From NCBI GenBank assembly GCA_001600635.1, contig BCKL01000010.1, positions 387,663 through 451,662 of the forward strand: DNA of 64,000 bases. Direction: 5' to 3'. A program made the translations under genes and the position numbers. How positions within the stretch are numbered: the stretch's first letter is position 1; each line of letters starts with the position of its first letter. Below, one piece after another: positions 36,291-44,191 of this stretch. This DNA is from Leucosporidium creatinivorum. Its lineage: Eukaryota; Basidiomycota; Microbotryomycetes; Leucosporidiales; Leucosporidiaceae. The notes under the pieces were generated by a model that saw only the letters and a program-made list of their open reading frames with translations, made no database searches and was not told the origin of the DNA.

Positions 36291-39200
36291 CTACATCTGC
36301 AACCTCATCCCCCTTCGCGCCGCCTCCTCAGCTTTGTAGCTAACCATGAGCGCCTTGACATGCGAGACAATCTCGACCGCCTGCCTCGAGCTCTCGGCCT
36401 CAAAGTCATACCGCTTGTCGTGCCCGTTCTTCTGCACCAGCATCTTGAAGGTCGTAGGCGCTCGTCGGGAGACCTTACAGTCGTGCACCATGGAGATGTG
36501 GAAGGAAGAGGTCCGGCCACCTTCGAAGCGACCGCGGTTGTCGGCGGCGGAGGGCATGAAGTGGATGCTGTAGGGCGAGGGGGAAGTTAGCGAGCGTACG
36601 GAGCGAGAGCAGCAGGTAAACTCACTAGTCCCCGTCGATGGCGATGGTACGAGGATGCCGACCGAGGGGCATGGGAAGCTTTCGTTGGACGTTGAAGCGC
36701 TGGTAGGTCGAGGTGAGGTCCGAGGCCGACTGGTACTTGGGCTGAGGCGGCTCCGAGAGGCGCTTGAAGATGGACGCTGTGCAGTCGAGCGGGTCAGCTC
36801 TACTCCATTCCTCAGATCTGAGTGACTGCTCACCACTCGGGTTGTTGTTCTGCAGCGCCTGCTTAATGTTGCCTCGAAGGCTGGCGACTTGACTCCGACG
36901 AACGAGGGTGAGGTCGTGGCGGTCGCCGAGGCTGTCGACGGTCCGGTCGAGAGGGACGACGATGTCGGCGTCATTGTGGCGGACCATGAGAGCCCACTCC
37001 TTGGGATTCTCGAGCCCTCGCTTCTTGCAGATGTGGTCTGCGGGCGAGAAGAAGGTCAGCTGGATCGCTTGAGACGTCGATCTCGAGGGACATACCCAGA
37101 ACATCGCTCATGTACATATCGTTCGGTACGCTGACCGTCGTGTTGATCTCATCGACACCCGGCGCCGGAGGGAGCCGCACGCGAAGGAGCACGGGAATGG
37201 AGAGCGCCGAAGAGACACCCATCGTTGTCCCGGGGCGGAATGATCCTCCAGTAGGCGTAAGTGGAACAGCAGGAGAAGCGACGGCGAGTGCAGGTTGAGC
37301 GTCGGCAGCGATGGGAGGGGCGAGAGTATTGCCGGCGGGGATGGCGAAGGAGCGTTTCGGCGCAGCGAGGACACGGGAAGGTCGACGCTGGATGGTGGAC
37401 TGCTTCGACTGATTATCCTTGACTGTAGAGAGCTCGTTGGTCAGCGAACAGGAAGTGGAGTGAAAATTCGGTCGACTTACGTTGCGGTCCCGTCGCCAGA
37501 ACGATGGCAAACTCGTCGAAGGAGAACTTGGAGATGGCGCGAGTTCGGTCGAGGGCTACAAAGAGATAAGTGTTAGTTCACCAGCCTTGTAAGCCGAAGC
37601 TGACGAGTACTCACCAGGAAAGTCCTCATCAACCTCTCCATCATCCTCCACAATCCGCAAGTTCCACTTGGTCGTCTCATCATGCTCCTGCTCCCCCTCC
37701 CCAACCTCCAACTTCGGCTCCCTACCCTCCTCCCAATAAGCCCACAGTCCCGCTCCAATAACCTCCTCGACCGAAAGGTCCTTCTTGACCGCAATCTTGA
37801 GCTTCTTGCTCGGGCTCTTGGATTGCGGGAAGTAGATAGTAAGCTTGAGAGCATCACTACCGCGGGAGACGAGGGCGGCGTAGAGTCGGGAGAAGGGGTT
37901 CGAGGCAGACGGGGAGTCCTCTTTGGCGGTCAGGAGGGCTGTCAGCGCCGAGCGTTTTGGCGCGGTAGGAACGAAGGAGGTGGGAAGGTCAGAGCGTTTG
38001 GCGAAGGAGATGACGGGCTGATGTTGGCGGGTGGGAGTGTGTGGTGGTGGCTGGGGTTTGGGGCGGAGGTGTTGGGGAGGAGAGGCGGGTGCGGAGGATG
38101 GCGCCGAGGGAGGGGCGTCGTGCGCGGTTGAGGGGTCGGCGCTGAGCATAAGGCTGGGCGCAGAGACCTTGCGCTTCCGCTCGATGGGATTCGTGTCTCC
38201 GGAAGGAGGACCTTGGTCGACAGTGCTGGAAGGATCGGCCTCGGGCGGCGAGATGGGGTCGGTGTTGGCCCTCGGTCGAGTAGGCGAGTCGTGAGGCGCC
38301 GATGCTGCATGTGCGGTGGCTGCAGATGGTAGTGGTGGTGCCTCCTCCTCGTGAGCCGGCTCCGCGATGGGCACGAGCATTCGGCCGCTGATATTGACCC
38401 TCCGGCGCTCCCTCGCCCGAAAGTTGCGAGGAACCTGGATTGGGGGTGGAGGAGGCTGTAAGTCATCCTCGTCGTCCTCCTCGATAGCGCCGATGCGATT
38501 GTTGGTCGAGCCAGGAGCGAAGGACGACGAGCCGCTATCGCTGCGCTCACGGCCCATGACTCCCTCAGCCGTGCCGTTGAGTCGAGAGACGCCGAAGAGC
38601 GAGACACCTGAGCTAGCTACGGAGGCATAGCGACCGCCGAAGGAGGAGGGCTCGGCGGCGTCGCGTACGGAGGAGACGGAGGGCGAAGACTGGAGGGAAG
38701 AGGCATGGATTGGCGAGACCGAGCTGGACGAGTGCGAGTGCATGAGGGCGAGGGGAGCTGAGGTCGAGACGTCCGAGCCTTCGGTGATGTGAGAAAGGGG
38801 GAGAGACGAAGCGGCGTCCACCGAGGAGGCTGCTGTATCGGACGGAGGGAGGGGAGGAGCGTCGTAGGCCCGGCGAGCCTCTGCTTCCTCGGCGGCGCGG
38901 GAAGCTTCGAGGAGAGCTGTAGCGGCACTGATCTCGACGGGCACTGCTATCGGTCGCTTCGGTGAGTCTGGTGGAGGGGTAGGAGGAGTATTGGCGCGAC
39001 TCGGATCGACGGTGCTGACCGGCGAGTCCTGCGGCGTCTGGATGGGTGAGTGGATGACGACGGGGGGAGGCGGCTGAAGGTGAGCTGTATTGTCCTGGAA
39101 GCGCTTGCGATGGATGGAAGCCTCCAATGAGTTCCGTCGACTTCGAAAGACGAAGTCAGCGCTCGGCTCGGCGAAGGAGGTCCAGAGAGGGCCTTACTTG

Positions 39201-39748
39201 AGATTCTCCGTCGTAGCTTCCTGCACCTCGGGCTCCGCCGGATCGCTTTCGTCGGTCTCGGCTACCTCGAGCGCTCCTGCTCGACCCTTCCAGCTCCTTT
39301 GGCGACCACCGACCCGCATGCCAGCGCCCCCCACTCCACGCCCTTTGCCGACAATCGTCTGGCTGTAGTTCAAGCCGGTAGATCCTCCAGTGGAAGGCGG
39401 TGGTCGTCGCCTTCCTCCTGCTCCACCAGCGCCCGAATCCCCTCGACCGAATCCCAGCGCGAGCGGCGGACTGGACCTCCCGCTGGACAGCTCAGGCCAT
39501 TTCGACTCGTCGGCGAGGCCGGAGAGGACGACGTAGGGCGAGTTGAAGCCTGGGGAAGAGTGGTCGAATGCGACGAGGTTGTGCGGTCCTGTACCAGGGA
39601 TTGCCGACTGGACAGCGTGATTCGGGAGGACGTGCCGGACGTAGTTGAGCTGAAGCGAGTGCAGGAGGAAGCTGTTGTCTGGCAGGTTAGCTATGCACGA
39701 TGAAGCTGCCGGTGAATGAGCTCACTCCTTGTCTGCAAGCAAAGACAT
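36291..39748 (-). CDS. SIN1: TORC2 subunit SIN1/AVO1
   Basis: Scaffold of target-of-rapamycin complex 2, at the plasma membrane, presenting AGC kinases (Ypk/Akt type) to Tor2. The first exon MSLLADK ends with a split Asp codon rejoining to DFLLHSLQLNYVRHVLPNHA, a typical SIN1 N-terminus. A long disordered Ser/Pro region follows. The CRIM domain follows (SASNPFSRLYAALVSRGSDA, LKLTIYFPQSKSPSKKLKIA, VEEVIGAGLWAYWEEGREPK), then a Ras-binding-like domain (LLRVRLPPAPGVDEINTTVS, MYMSDVLDHICKKRGLENPK). The C-terminal PH domain reads YQRFNVQRKLPMPLGRHPRT, IAIDGDYIHFMPSA and VSRRAPTTFKMLVQKNG, and ends ARRGMRLQM. Convergent with the permease (169 bases apart) and divergent from the MATH/USP-like gene. 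Confidence 0.94.
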
Positions 39749-40078
39749 GCCTCAGCAACAGCGGCAGCTGCTCGCGGGGTGTTGACGGGGTCGGAGCGCG
39801 TAGTCGATGGCAGGAGCTGAGAGCGGAGCCGGCAAGGAGCTTCGGTAGCGCTTTATGAGCCGAGTGAACGCTGTAGTCGAGATGCAGCGCGAACGAGTGA
39901 GTCGGAGGAGCAAGAGAGGTCGCGCGACCAGCTTCGAAACTCCTTATCTTCCTGCCTCATCGTGCTCCTTCAATTTCAACTCCAGCATCGCTTCTGCACC
40001 TCGATAGCCTAGTTGCTGCTGCTCCTGGACTTCACACAACCTACACCTCGCTGTCCCGCTTTCTCTCAGCTCGCCCGC
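39749..40078. promoter_or_regulatory. Shared upstream region of SIN1 and MATH/USP-like gene
   Basis: 330 bases between divergent start codons. It contains the 20-base word at 39865-39884 that recurs exactly at 21215-21234; its core in the SIN1 direction is CTCGACTACAGC, about 120 bases upstream of the SIN1 ATG. Confidence 0.45.
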
Positions 40079-41592
40079 CATGGTAAGCCGTCCTCTCGCC
40101 TCGCCGCATACGTTCGCTGACCTACTCATCTGCAGGCCGAACCAGTGCAACATCCTCAGCCTGCTCCTCCAACCAGTCCTCCCGAGCCCTCCCTGTACCC
40201 TCTAGAGCGTGCGTTTCCCCCCTTCGCTCTCGCGCTGAACGAGGGGCTGACTTTGCTACTCAGTCAACTCCAGGACGCCCGACATGAGCGACAAGCCAGG
40301 AGAAGATCAAGCTGATTTCAAAGCCTTCTCGTGGCGCGTGAGCTGGCACGAGCAGGAGTGCGATGCCATTCGCAGCCCTCGGTTCGAAGTAGGCGGGCAT
40401 CAGTGGCGAGTTCACCTTATTTCGAGTCGACTCGTACGCTCGCGAACCTCGGCTGACCAAAGCTCCATCCTCAGGTCGCTCTCCATCCGTCCGAACCGCG
40501 AGCTTGAATCCGGCCTCGTCTCCATCATCCTCAACCACGAGTCCCCCGAGCTGCTCGCAGGTCCAGTCGACCACATCTGCGCTCGCATCGCCATCTCTAT
40601 GGCCACCACTAACCTTCCACTATCTCGAAACCGTACCTTCACCGAGCGTGAGCAATTCTCGATCTCGCCATCGCCGAGCTGCCTCACAACTGACCTCTAC
40701 CCTCTACTCTTCCGACGCACAGGCGGCGCATACCGCTTCTCCGCCAGTCGCAAGCTGTATGGCTTCCCGTCCTTTGGATATCGGAAGGATCTCGTCAAGT
40801 GGTGTGTCGGCTCAGACGATGACTCGGTCGTGACCGTCTACCTCAAGGTGCTCAAGGACGAGACGGGCTACTGCTTCTACCCTTTTTCCAAAGCTATGTA
40901 AGCTCTCAGTGACCTCGAAGTGAACATCACTGACCTCTCGCGGCGAACAGATACGACTCGAGGGAACGGATAGGCCTCGTCTCCCTCAGAAAGTACCAGG
41001 ATTTTACCGATGTCGGCTTCCTGCTTCTGTGGAGCATACCCGAGATCCGCAAGGTATGTAGCTTCTCTTGTACTTCCCATCACGGCTCTGACGTGCTCTC
41101 GCCGTTGTCAGCTGGTCTACGAGCTCCCCGACCTCCCCGATTCGCCGTCGGGCAAGCAGAACCTCATCGTCGGCAGCCTTCAGACCCTCTTCTATGCCCT
41201 CGAGGTCGCAGAACGGGCAGTCAGTGAGTCTCAAGGTAGTCTGATACCACCTTGTTCGCTTGCTGAGCACTCGCCCGCCTCGCAGGTACCGAGCCGACCG
41301 TCCAAGCTCTCAGTCACAGAGCGATGACCTTCGGCTCTGAGCGAGGCGAAGCTGTGCGCTTCGCTTACGACGCGATCAACGACTCACAACTTCCTGGGGT
41401 GAGTTCGACTTCTTCTCCTCGCAAGAACCGGCTCGAGCTAACATGCTCGTCCTCAGGCGCCGTCTCGCAAGCTCTTCAACGACTTGCTCTCGAGTCGAAC
41501 GCTCCGTAGAGCGGAGGATGGCTCGCTCACCGTCGACTATACCGGTGGGTACTGGCGCCTCGTCTTCTCGCAGCTTCAAGCTAACCGGAACT

Positions 41593-41623
<31 letters not shown>

Positions 41624-42582
41624 GCAGACTCCATTTCGATCGCGCCCGTCCGCCGCTTCTGCGCCACCGACCTCATCTCCACCCTAGACCGTCGTCTTCA
41701 GACCCGACCCTCACTCACCGACTTCAGCTCCGACGACACTACCTCACAACAGGACCCGCCATTAGCCATGTTCGACTTCTCCCCCTACCTCACCATCGAG
41801 CTGGGCCCCCCGGTCACCGCCGGCTCCTCAGCTCCGCGCTTCACTTTCCCGACCACCCTCGACATGACCCGTTTCCTCCCCTACACAACCCCCGAACTCG
41901 CAGCCCAGCAGCTCGGCGCATCCCACCCCCCTCCTCGCAAGAGTGCCAAATTCCGCCTACACACCGTCATCGTTCAACTACCCGACTTTGACGTCCCCCT
42001 CCTCAATCGAGCGGGCAAACGTGTCCTCAACGAGTCGTATGCTTTTATCCGCCCCGAGCCAAGTGGGCTCTGGTACAAGCATCGCGATGGCAGGGTCGTG
42101 GTCGCGACGGAGAAGGAGGTCCTGGAGAGTGCGTTTGGAGGGAGAGGAGTGCAGCAGACGGAGGAGTTCGGAGCGGCGACGACGTTGGTTTATGCTGATG
42201 ACGAGTTTGAGAGGAGGAGAGGCGAGGTTGAGGCCAAGCCGAGGATTGGGATTCGTACGTTGGTCGCTGGCTCGCGTTCTCGCTTTATGGGTCGCGGAGC
42301 TAACGCGACTTGACTCTGTCTATAGGCGACTGGGTCAAGCGCAACCTGCAGCTCAAGAAGGGCGAGCCGCTGAGCCCTTTCACGCGGACCGAGGGTGAGT
42401 TGTGGCTGCGTCTTGCCCTCCCTCCATCCTCAACTCCCTGCCTTCTACCTCATTCTCTTCCACTGACACGTTCCCTCGCCACAGCCCTCGTGTGCGCTAC
42501 TGCTACCGTCGGCATCGCCGCTGCCGCGATTGGCCTCCTCGCTTTCGGCGTCAAGGCGGCGATGAGGATGAGGAGACCGTAG
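40079..42582 (+). CDS. MATH plus USP7-like protein, apparently inactive, with C-terminal membrane anchor
   Basis: The ATG is alone in its first exon (40079-40081). Downstream exons give MAEPVQHPQP, then a MATH domain (FKAFSWRVSWHEQECDAIRS, PRFEVGGHQW, LESGLVSIILNHES, ICARIAISMATTN, GYRKDLVKWCVGSDDDSVVT). Next is a region colinear with the USP7/Ubp15 catalytic core: GLVSLRKYQDFTDVGFLLLW, PEIRKLVYELPD, VGSLQTLFYALEVAERAVST, RAMTFGSERGEAVRFAYDAI. The finger-to-palm part follows (FTFPTTLDMTRFLPYT, FRLHTVIVQLPDFD, LNESYAFIRPEPSGLWYKHR). By eye, the Cys-box Cys is Asp (FTDVG versus ATCYM) and the GGHY His is Ser (NESY), so no peptidase activity is expected. The tail VCATATVGIAAAAIGLLAFG followed by VKAAMRMRRP reads as a tail anchor. 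One intron needs a GC donor (40406-40474). Role probably ubiquitin or substrate binding at a membrane (inference). Confidence 0.82.
41593..41621 (+). repeat. 29-base poly-C tract in an intron
   Basis: An uninterrupted run of 29 C lies between the branch site GCTAACC (about 41578) and the acceptor TCGCAG of the intron after the DYT codons. It takes the place of the pyrimidine tract. The opposite strand is 29 G. Length is probably unreliable in the assembly. Confidence 0.9.
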
Positions 42583-42752
42583 CAGTGCTCAGCCTAATTC
42601 ACGTCATACAGCCGATGGGACCAACTTTGCGTACGAGTAGAGCCAGCTGGAGAGCCCTGCTTGTGCGACTTTCGAGAGCGGCGAGCAGCTCAAGCGCCGA
42701 AGACCATCGCTCGTCGGCAGCTGTGAGTCGATGCGGCGAATTGGATACAAGC

Positions 42753-44191
42753 TCAACCACCCTCCTCCACCCTCGCACTACTGCCCATCAGCGCCTTGAA
42801 CCTCTTCCTCATTCCCTCTCCCACCTTTCTCACCCTCTCCTTCACCCACTCCTCGTCCCCTCCCACTTCCTCGCCCTCCTCATCCTCGCTCCTCAACCTG
42901 CAGCCAAACCCCTGATCCCTCACCCTCCCCTTCACAGCATCCCTCACCTCTCCATACAGCTTCTCATGCTTTCTCCAATCCATTTCTACCTTCACTTCTG
43001 ATTGGCCCAGCTCGGTGGGGTGGAAAGGAGTAGGGAAAGGAGCGGCCTTGTCCAATGCAGGACCGTAGAGAGCTTCTTCCAACCAGGAGGGGTTGGGCGT
43101 CGAGGGTGAGAGATGGGAGGGAGGGTGAGCGTTGGGAGGGGTGAAACGCTCGGTGTCGAAGTGAGGGTGATTCGTCGAGGTGGTGGAAGAGGAGGAGGGT
43201 GGTGGACGATGAGAGGGTGCTTTGAATGATTGTGGCTGGGGCGCCCTGGGTGGGTAGGGGAAGGTGGTGGGCAGTTTGTGTGTAGGCTGATGTGAGGGCC
43301 GAGAGGAGGGAGGGTTCGGCGGAAGAAAGGCGAAGCGCTGTGGCTGGTTCGGCGGGGGGTGCTGTTGTTTGCAAAGTGATACGATGGAATTGTCCGGTGG
43401 TTGAGGATGTGAACGAGGAACCTGAGCTGGTCGTAGAGGTGCGAAAGGCTGCGGTCCAGGTCGAGCGGGGTGGGAAGGAGTAGCGATTTGAGCCATGAGG
43501 GTGTCGGAAGCACAGGAGGTGTCGCTTGAGTGACGGTGAGAGGCGTTCGGGAGCTTGGAGTGATCGAACGCTGCTCCAGAGGTTGGCGTGCCCGAGTCCG
43601 GTGGGAAGAGCTTTGAAGCTGGGACGAACGAGCGCCGAGCGGTCGAGGGTGCAGCTGCAGAGAGACGCTGGGTCGAAGCAGCAGCGAGATGAGCTTTTCG
43701 GTAGTACGGTGTCAGCTTTGCTTCCTTGCCGAGCGGCAAGAAGGGCTCACCTGCTCCTATAGATCCGTCTCGTCTCGAATCGCGCCTCGGCTCGAGACTT
43801 CTTCCCGCGAAATCTGCCGCAGTGTCCTTCCAGCCATCTCCTCCTCCTTCCTACCGGTAGCGGCGTCCCTCTCCCTTCCTCCCTCTCCTACCGCACGCTC
43901 CTGAACCGCCGTTCTGGCCAGCTTGCTCGACGCTGCTGCGCTTCCCTCCTCCTCGACTCGGCGCCTCTTACTTGCTGTGCGACGATCGAAGACTCTCCAA
44001 ACTCCAGCGGAAGCATCATTAGCTCTGGCTACTAGTCCCGACGAGCTACCCCCTCCCTGCTTGCTGTCCGAGACAGATACGAGCGAGGAGAGCTGAGGTG
44101 GCGAAGCTAAGTCGAGCTCCTCATCCGATCCGTCCGATAGTTCCTCCTGCTGCATGTTGTAGGACCAGTCGCCGTCGGTTAGCTTGGTCAT
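42753..44191 (-). CDS. Disordered protein of unknown function (model uncertain)
   Basis: First exon MTKLTDGDWSYNMQQEELSD, then an acidic run (GSDEELDLASPP) and a basic patch FDRRTASKRRRVEEE. A second exon is Pro/Ser/His-rich (AHLAAASTQRLSAAAPSTAR, PHFDTERFTPPNAHPP) and ends in a charged helical stretch EEWVKERVRKVGEGMRKRF, then SSARVEEGG. Read without an intron, the first frame stops at 43757. A donor GTAGGA inside it (about 43855) and an acceptor AAAAG before CTCATCTC join both frames (DAAT then AHLAAAS). Two separate genes are the alternative. The basic patch may be a nuclear signal. No family recognised. Confidence 0.45.

Follow-up and report, generated by a model that had tools for sequence, protein, structure and literature searches.

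What becomes of a deubiquitinase (DUB) copy whose catalytic residues have been replaced is the question raised by a gene of the basidiomycete Leucosporidium creatinivorum (GCA_001600635.1; 27.7 Mb in 63 contigs), found on contig C10 in a window of 64,000 nucleotides (nt; BCKL01000010.1, positions 387,663 to 451,662). The gene, here called pseudo-USP7, occupies 40080..42582 on the + strand of this window, as do all its features below. Its 12 exons form an intact frame of 591 amino acids (aa), with the ATG at 40080-40082 and a stop ending at 42582, within one base of the span 40079..42582 given in an earlier note on this DNA. From the open frame, splice sites and branch-like motifs we read it as a USP7-derived pseudo-deubiquitinase with a C-terminal hydrophobic tail. 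That it is a USP7 duplicate turned into a membrane-tethered scaffold or decoy has in our estimate a probability of about 0.66, a figure that blends structure and role: taken alone, the structural description is very probable, while the odds lean against the scaffold or decoy role.

The genome has its own USP7/Ubp15 gene on a different contig (C1; locus L044). In a hand-made model, the last exon end of which is provisional, it encodes 1112 residues, including GATCYMN, QHDVQEF, GGHYF and RFDDD. Besides itself, the best genome-wide matches of the pseudo-USP7 protein both lay in this gene (C1:321625-321969, E 1e-4; C1:323385-323501, E 0.003), and a further weak match was found at C4:1007407-1007877 (E 0.40). 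Identity between the two proteins is about 28%; their local alignment, made blind to introns, scored 279, compared with a mean of 38.6 and a maximum of 67 in 300 shuffles. A profile of 121 USP7 proteins matched pseudo-USP7 with 130 bits in total (residues 33-263 and 398-505), the best of 400 controls reaching -1.4, and a PDB search using a 614-aa model (see below) returned USP7 in 23/23 matches at E<=1 (best E 0.014). Colinearity with USP7 through MATH, thumb, fingers and palm, which had been proposed by eye, is borne out by these results, and the order of a MATH domain followed by a USP domain places the protein by descent in the USP7/Ubp15 family. A MATH family scan of the genome gave no match, nor did it give any in 14 controls, and is uninformative for that reason.

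The two genes also share their structure, as expected of a genuine member of the family. Intron phases 1-9 follow an identical order in both, beginning with the phase 0 intron after exon 1 (40080..40082), which consists of the ATG only. By residue and phase in the profile alignment, introns 1, 3, 4, 6 and 7 coincide with those of USP7, and introns 5 and 8 are no more than two residues away; a blind pairwise alignment had found four introns exact and one a residue off, and the count used here is that of the profile alignment. Exon 3 (40264..40405), where the MATH domain starts, and exon 8 (41286..41398), in the thumb, have the same lengths as USP7 exons 3 and 8 (142 and 113 nt). USP7 intron 10 is missing from pseudo-USP7, where exon 10 (41628..42254; 627 nt) spans fingers and palm; USP7 exons 10 and 11 sum to 618 nt. 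The common intron positions and phases and the equal lengths of exons 3 and 8 argue for duplication with introns, not by reverse transcription, and pseudo-USP7 is best read as an old, diverged DNA-level duplicate of the fungus's own USP7/Ubp15 gene, introns included.

All introns but one are GT-AG (10/11); the exception, intron 3 (40406..40474), is GC-AG and lies within the codon of a MATH Trp as in the fungus's own USP7. Because this intron preserves both the frame and the MATH Trp and falls at the intron site of the own USP7 gene, two other models were rejected: one without intron 3 (614 aa) and one in which its donor is GTGGCG at 40403 (590 aa). The own USP7 gene as modelled has GC-AG introns too, with GCGAGT donors in introns 6 and 10 (L044 2410-2415 and 3192-3197). 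A CTGAC, CTAAC or CTGAT motif occurs in 11/11 pseudo-USP7 introns, at 17-33 nt from the intron end in nine and at 45 and 47 nt in introns 7 and 9. GC content is 0.61, 0.48 and 0.74 at the three codon positions in turn, and 0.59 in introns. Among the remaining exons of the N-terminal half, exon 2 (40136..40208) encodes an N-terminus rich in proline, exon 4 (40475..40647) continues the MATH domain, and exon 5 (40723..40897) ends it (VTVYLKVLKDETG). Exon 7 (41112..41223) belongs to the thumb (RK|LVYELP..LQTLFYAL), and the fingers start in exon 9 (41457..41544). A run of 29 C at 41593-41621 sits in intron 9 directly before the acceptor, outside the coding part, and is a likely site for sequencing or assembly errors.

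Catalytic residues were examined in an alignment of 122 rows: pseudo-USP7, the fungus's own USP7 and 120 relatives. The relatives are the matches listed of 1582 that residues 1-548 of the own USP7 obtained among 7996 candidates; candidates had to be 0.55-1.75 times the query length, a limit that excludes the longest full-length USP7s. At the positions that we take to be those of the catalytic triad and the oxyanion residue, Cys is replaced by Thr208 (41006-41008), His by Glu463 (42032-42034), Asp by Arg480 (42083-42085), and the oxyanion Asn by Lys. The earlier note had seen Asp at the Cys position (FTDVG under ATCYM) and Ser at the His position. Both replacements stand with corrected residues, as a small shift by hand brings Asp206 (41000-41002) or Gln205 to the Cys position, and anchoring the Tyr brings Ser464 to that of His (Glu463/Ser464, 42032-42037); the loss of Asp lay beyond what that note had checked. 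The 3' end of the Cys-box exon, exon 6 (40951..41053), falls exactly at a USP7 intron position, and its 5' end is no more than two residues from another. The exon contains no Cys in the gene's frame, so that the loss of Cys hardly depends on the alignment.

An alternative exon model restoring the Cys and His boxes, which would have undone the earlier proposal, was sought and rejected, as no frame has either box at a fitting place. The strict Cys-box pattern was absent from all six frames of 39900-42800, where the only His-like match was SHY at 42773, past the gene; relaxed patterns gave one + strand match inside the gene (GQTC at 42013, in another frame, in the palm region), the rest being on the - strand. 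In a genome-wide UCH scan, 0/35 listed matches lay on the contig of pseudo-USP7. The protein thus departs from an active USP7/Ubp15 enzyme at Cys, His and Asp (T208, E463, R480) and resembles a pseudo-DUB of the USP class in having the fold kept and the triad replaced. Loss of the triad and the oxyanion residue supports the conclusion that this is probably an inactive USP7-derived protein. Enzymatic activity that relies on different residues has precedents in USP52, where it is reported, and USP39, where it is debated (PMC10919355, in excerpt), and Cys339 and His439 lie within the fingers and palm exon; with Cys, His, Asp and the oxyanion Asn all replaced in aligned positions, we consider it so improbable that it deserves hardly any weight.

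The C-terminal ubiquitin-like half of USP7 is gone, as had been claimed, and the protein ends 55 residues past the palm exon, in another departure from the active enzyme. A basic linker (exon 11, 42326..42394), the 5' intron of which has the phase of USP7 intron 11 at a position matched by eye only and not by the profile alignment, leads to exon 12 (42485..42582). This last exon encodes a hydrophobic segment of 23 residues (ALVCATATVGIAAAAIGLLAFGV; residues 560-582 of 591; mean hydropathy 2.18), then the basic end KAAMRMRRP with four positive residues (+4). The next best 19-residue window of the protein reaches 1.17, and among the 122 aligned proteins, whose relatives are length-filtered and some of them partial, pseudo-USP7 is the sole one with a 19-residue window of mean Kyte-Doolittle hydropathy >=1.6. 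A single strongly hydrophobic segment near the C-terminus is what would be expected of a tail-anchored protein. Of the "inactive, tail-anchored USP7 derivative" in the earlier note, the inactive USP7 origin and the hydrophobic C-terminal segment are upheld by homology, introns and triad loss, and the term tail-anchored stays a prediction from sequence, based on the hydrophobic last exon, its short basic end and the 1.17 of the next best window.

The tail could instead be an artifact of a misjoined last exon, or intron 10 could often be kept, leaving a soluble inactive USP7 copy. Retention of intron 10 does give an in-frame stop (42311-42313), and such a tail occurs in 0/121 of the USP7 proteins examined; intron 10, however, has the ends GTACGT..TATAG and a CTAAC 26 nt before the second of them, and the tail is unchanged whether intron 11 (42395-42484; 90 nt, in-frame stop absent) is spliced or kept. 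A soluble copy is thus quite unlikely.

The sequence shows that the gene kept a MATH-plus-USP frame and has a hydrophobic last exon where USP7 has its C-terminal ubiquitin-like half. From homology, duplication, triad loss, intact frame and hydrophobic tail, all read in the DNA, we infer insertion, topology, organelle, partner and role as follows. The protein would be tail-anchored and face the cytosol; its MATH domain and remaining USP palm could hold a protein partner at the membrane; and it might be either a scaffold or a decoy vying with active USP7 for a common partner. Pseudo-DUBs can be scaffolds or allosteric activators (PMC10919355, in excerpt). Budding yeast Ubp15 binds the N-domains of Pex6 and deubiquitinates Pex5, and the tail-anchored Pex15 recruits Pex6 (excerpts of PMC9265785), which makes peroxisomal Pex6 a candidate partner; part of PMC7653365 also describes Ubp15 as acting in endocytosis and in the cell cycle. 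The gene may have become a non-enzymatic, tail-anchored receptor by which USP7 partners are drawn to the membrane of an organelle or withheld from the active enzyme, a possibility that we place short of even odds.

Which surfaces remain was judged from near-invariant columns, those with agreement of 95% or more among the 120 listed relatives. Pseudo-USP7 keeps 14/29 of these in MATH, 7/19 in the Cys exon, 10/29 in the rest of the thumb, 5/37 in the fingers (a lower bound, as the alignment is weak there) and 12/23 in the palm, compared with 28/29, 19/19, 29/29, 37/37 and 23/23 in the fungus's own USP7. In exon 8 QHDVQEF has become GSERGEA, with the near-invariant Gln, Asp and Val changed and the Glu kept. 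The predicted fold of exon 10 only had a mean predicted local distance difference test (pLDDT) score of 65, with residues 1-66 below 50, and the model is biased toward a USP7-like result because its alignment held USP7 relatives (28/120). A dead USP fold that still binds ubiquitin and gathers ubiquitinated cargo at the membrane would be a ubiquitin receptor of the kind suggested in the earlier note. Proteases of the same class can recruit proteins without catalysis (PMC10919355, in excerpt), and the palm retains about half of its columns, as counted above; the fingers, Cys exon and GSERGEA speak against this ubiquitin receptor, which we find unlikely. The few near-invariant columns kept on the ubiquitin side make the scaffold or decoy likelier. 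Nor is the wider phrase "ubiquitin or substrate receptor on an organelle membrane" borne out, given the fingers, the altered QHDVQEF and the MATH pocket, where D147 and W148 of the own USP7 correspond to Leu142 and Tyr143. Presumably the USP7 MATH pocket uses that Asp-Trp pair, and with Leu-Tyr in its place pseudo-USP7 may fail to bind the classic ligand motif of USP7.

A decaying duplicate, a pseudogene with its frame intact by luck, would account for the 28% identity and for relatives not being found. Against it stand, at such divergence, a run of 591 codons free of stops and 11 introns that still have usable ends as well as branch-like motifs. When the USP7 coding sequence was substituted randomly to 30% identity (substitutions only), stops averaged 15 and numbered at least three in each of 200 runs; that pseudo-USP7 has none speaks for a protein under selection over most of its past, and decay is decidedly improbable.

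Besides the changed MATH pocket, several observations weigh against a membrane-tethered USP7 duplicate. The 614-aa model scored below the curated Pfam cut-offs (MATH_2, 19.5 versus 32 bits; UCH, 13.4 versus 23.9), and exon 10 alone had no Pfam match at E<=0.1. The profile alignment leaves three introns unmatched: intron 2 is displaced by 4 residues from that of USP7, intron 9 is displaced by 8-14, and intron 10 falls nearest to a different USP7 intron. These three were paired by phase, order and junction residues read by eye, and intron 11 has no USP7 counterpart. No orthologue was found among 5.8 billion proteins with the 614-aa model (none at E<=0.001 in the 7992 candidates sharing most words) or with residues 430-530 of the 591-aa model (none at E<=10 in 186 candidates). 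The 1582 matches of the own USP7 control indicate that fungi are represented, and the absence is weak evidence because the search needs shared 5-residue words and coverage of close relatives is uncertain. Finally, according to excerpts of PMC5450235, yeast endoplasmic reticulum (ER) anchors have hydropathy > 1.75, and mammalian tails go to peroxisomes when their charge is high and to mitochondria when it is lower. The pseudo-USP7 tail satisfies both the yeast ER rule (2.18) and the mammalian high-charge peroxisome rule, its +4 end favoring peroxisomes or mitochondria on the mammalian side, so that the rules point to different organelles.

Compared with USP7/HAUSP (human) and Ubp15 (budding yeast), pseudo-USP7 has MATH, thumb, fingers and palm in the same order, and introns common to the own USP7; it differs in lacking the catalytic residues and the ubiquitin-like half, in its hydrophobic last exon and in its identity of only about 28%. 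For USP39/Sad1 we know of no descent from USP7 and no membrane tail. Its USP domain likewise lacks Cys and His, with Asp at the Cys position (Thr or Asp in pseudo-USP7), but it has a zinc-finger domain and a pre-mRNA splicing role (PMC10919355, in excerpt). Pex15/PEX26 is not a USP and serves only as a model for a tethered Ubp15 relative. Pex15 is a peroxisomal tail-anchored protein and, like Ubp15, binds Pex6 (PMC9265785, in excerpt). In the papers listed by our literature searches we found no fungal pseudo-USP7 described and no membrane-tethered pseudo-USP7. Pseudo-DUBs are already known; a pseudo-USP7 with a membrane anchor replacing the ubiquitin-like half would, if true, show how a soluble protein-turnover enzyme turns into a membrane-bound regulator.

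Cys was also missing in 18/120 of the listed fungal USP7 relatives (9 Gly, 6 Ser, 3 Ala), a share probably inflated by the length filter. These are P0003, P0006, P0007, P0008, P0011, P0013-P0017, P0021, P0025, P0030, P0042 (no clear motif), P0044, P0048, P0065 and P0109, from the fungal genera Mycena, Thelephora, Galerina, Melanogaster, Flagelloscypha, Serendipita, Rhizophagus, Glomus and Gigaspora. Like pseudo-USP7 they are USP7 copies with another residue for Cys (e.g. P0065 Serendipita, P0017 Rhizophagus, P0013 Thelephora), but they are much nearer to USP7, 14/18 keeping His and 17/18 Asp, and none has a hydrophobic tail (window >=1.6). Their occurrence in several fungal groups suggests that catalytic loss recurs and can be compared. 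P0016, P0021, P0048 and the Cys-keeping P0012 of Thelephora ganbajun are each on a contig of length 179150, suggesting a cluster.

Downstream of pseudo-USP7, an open frame at 42753-43850 (-; 365 aa) had no Pfam match at E<=0.1. Upstream, the interval 37556-39721 (-) holds neighboring open frames. A CRIM domain (E 3e-31), known from Sin1/Avo1 of TORC2, is encoded by the first, and the upstream one ends at 39721, 359 bp before the ATG; the two may be parts of a single gene in head-to-head orientation.
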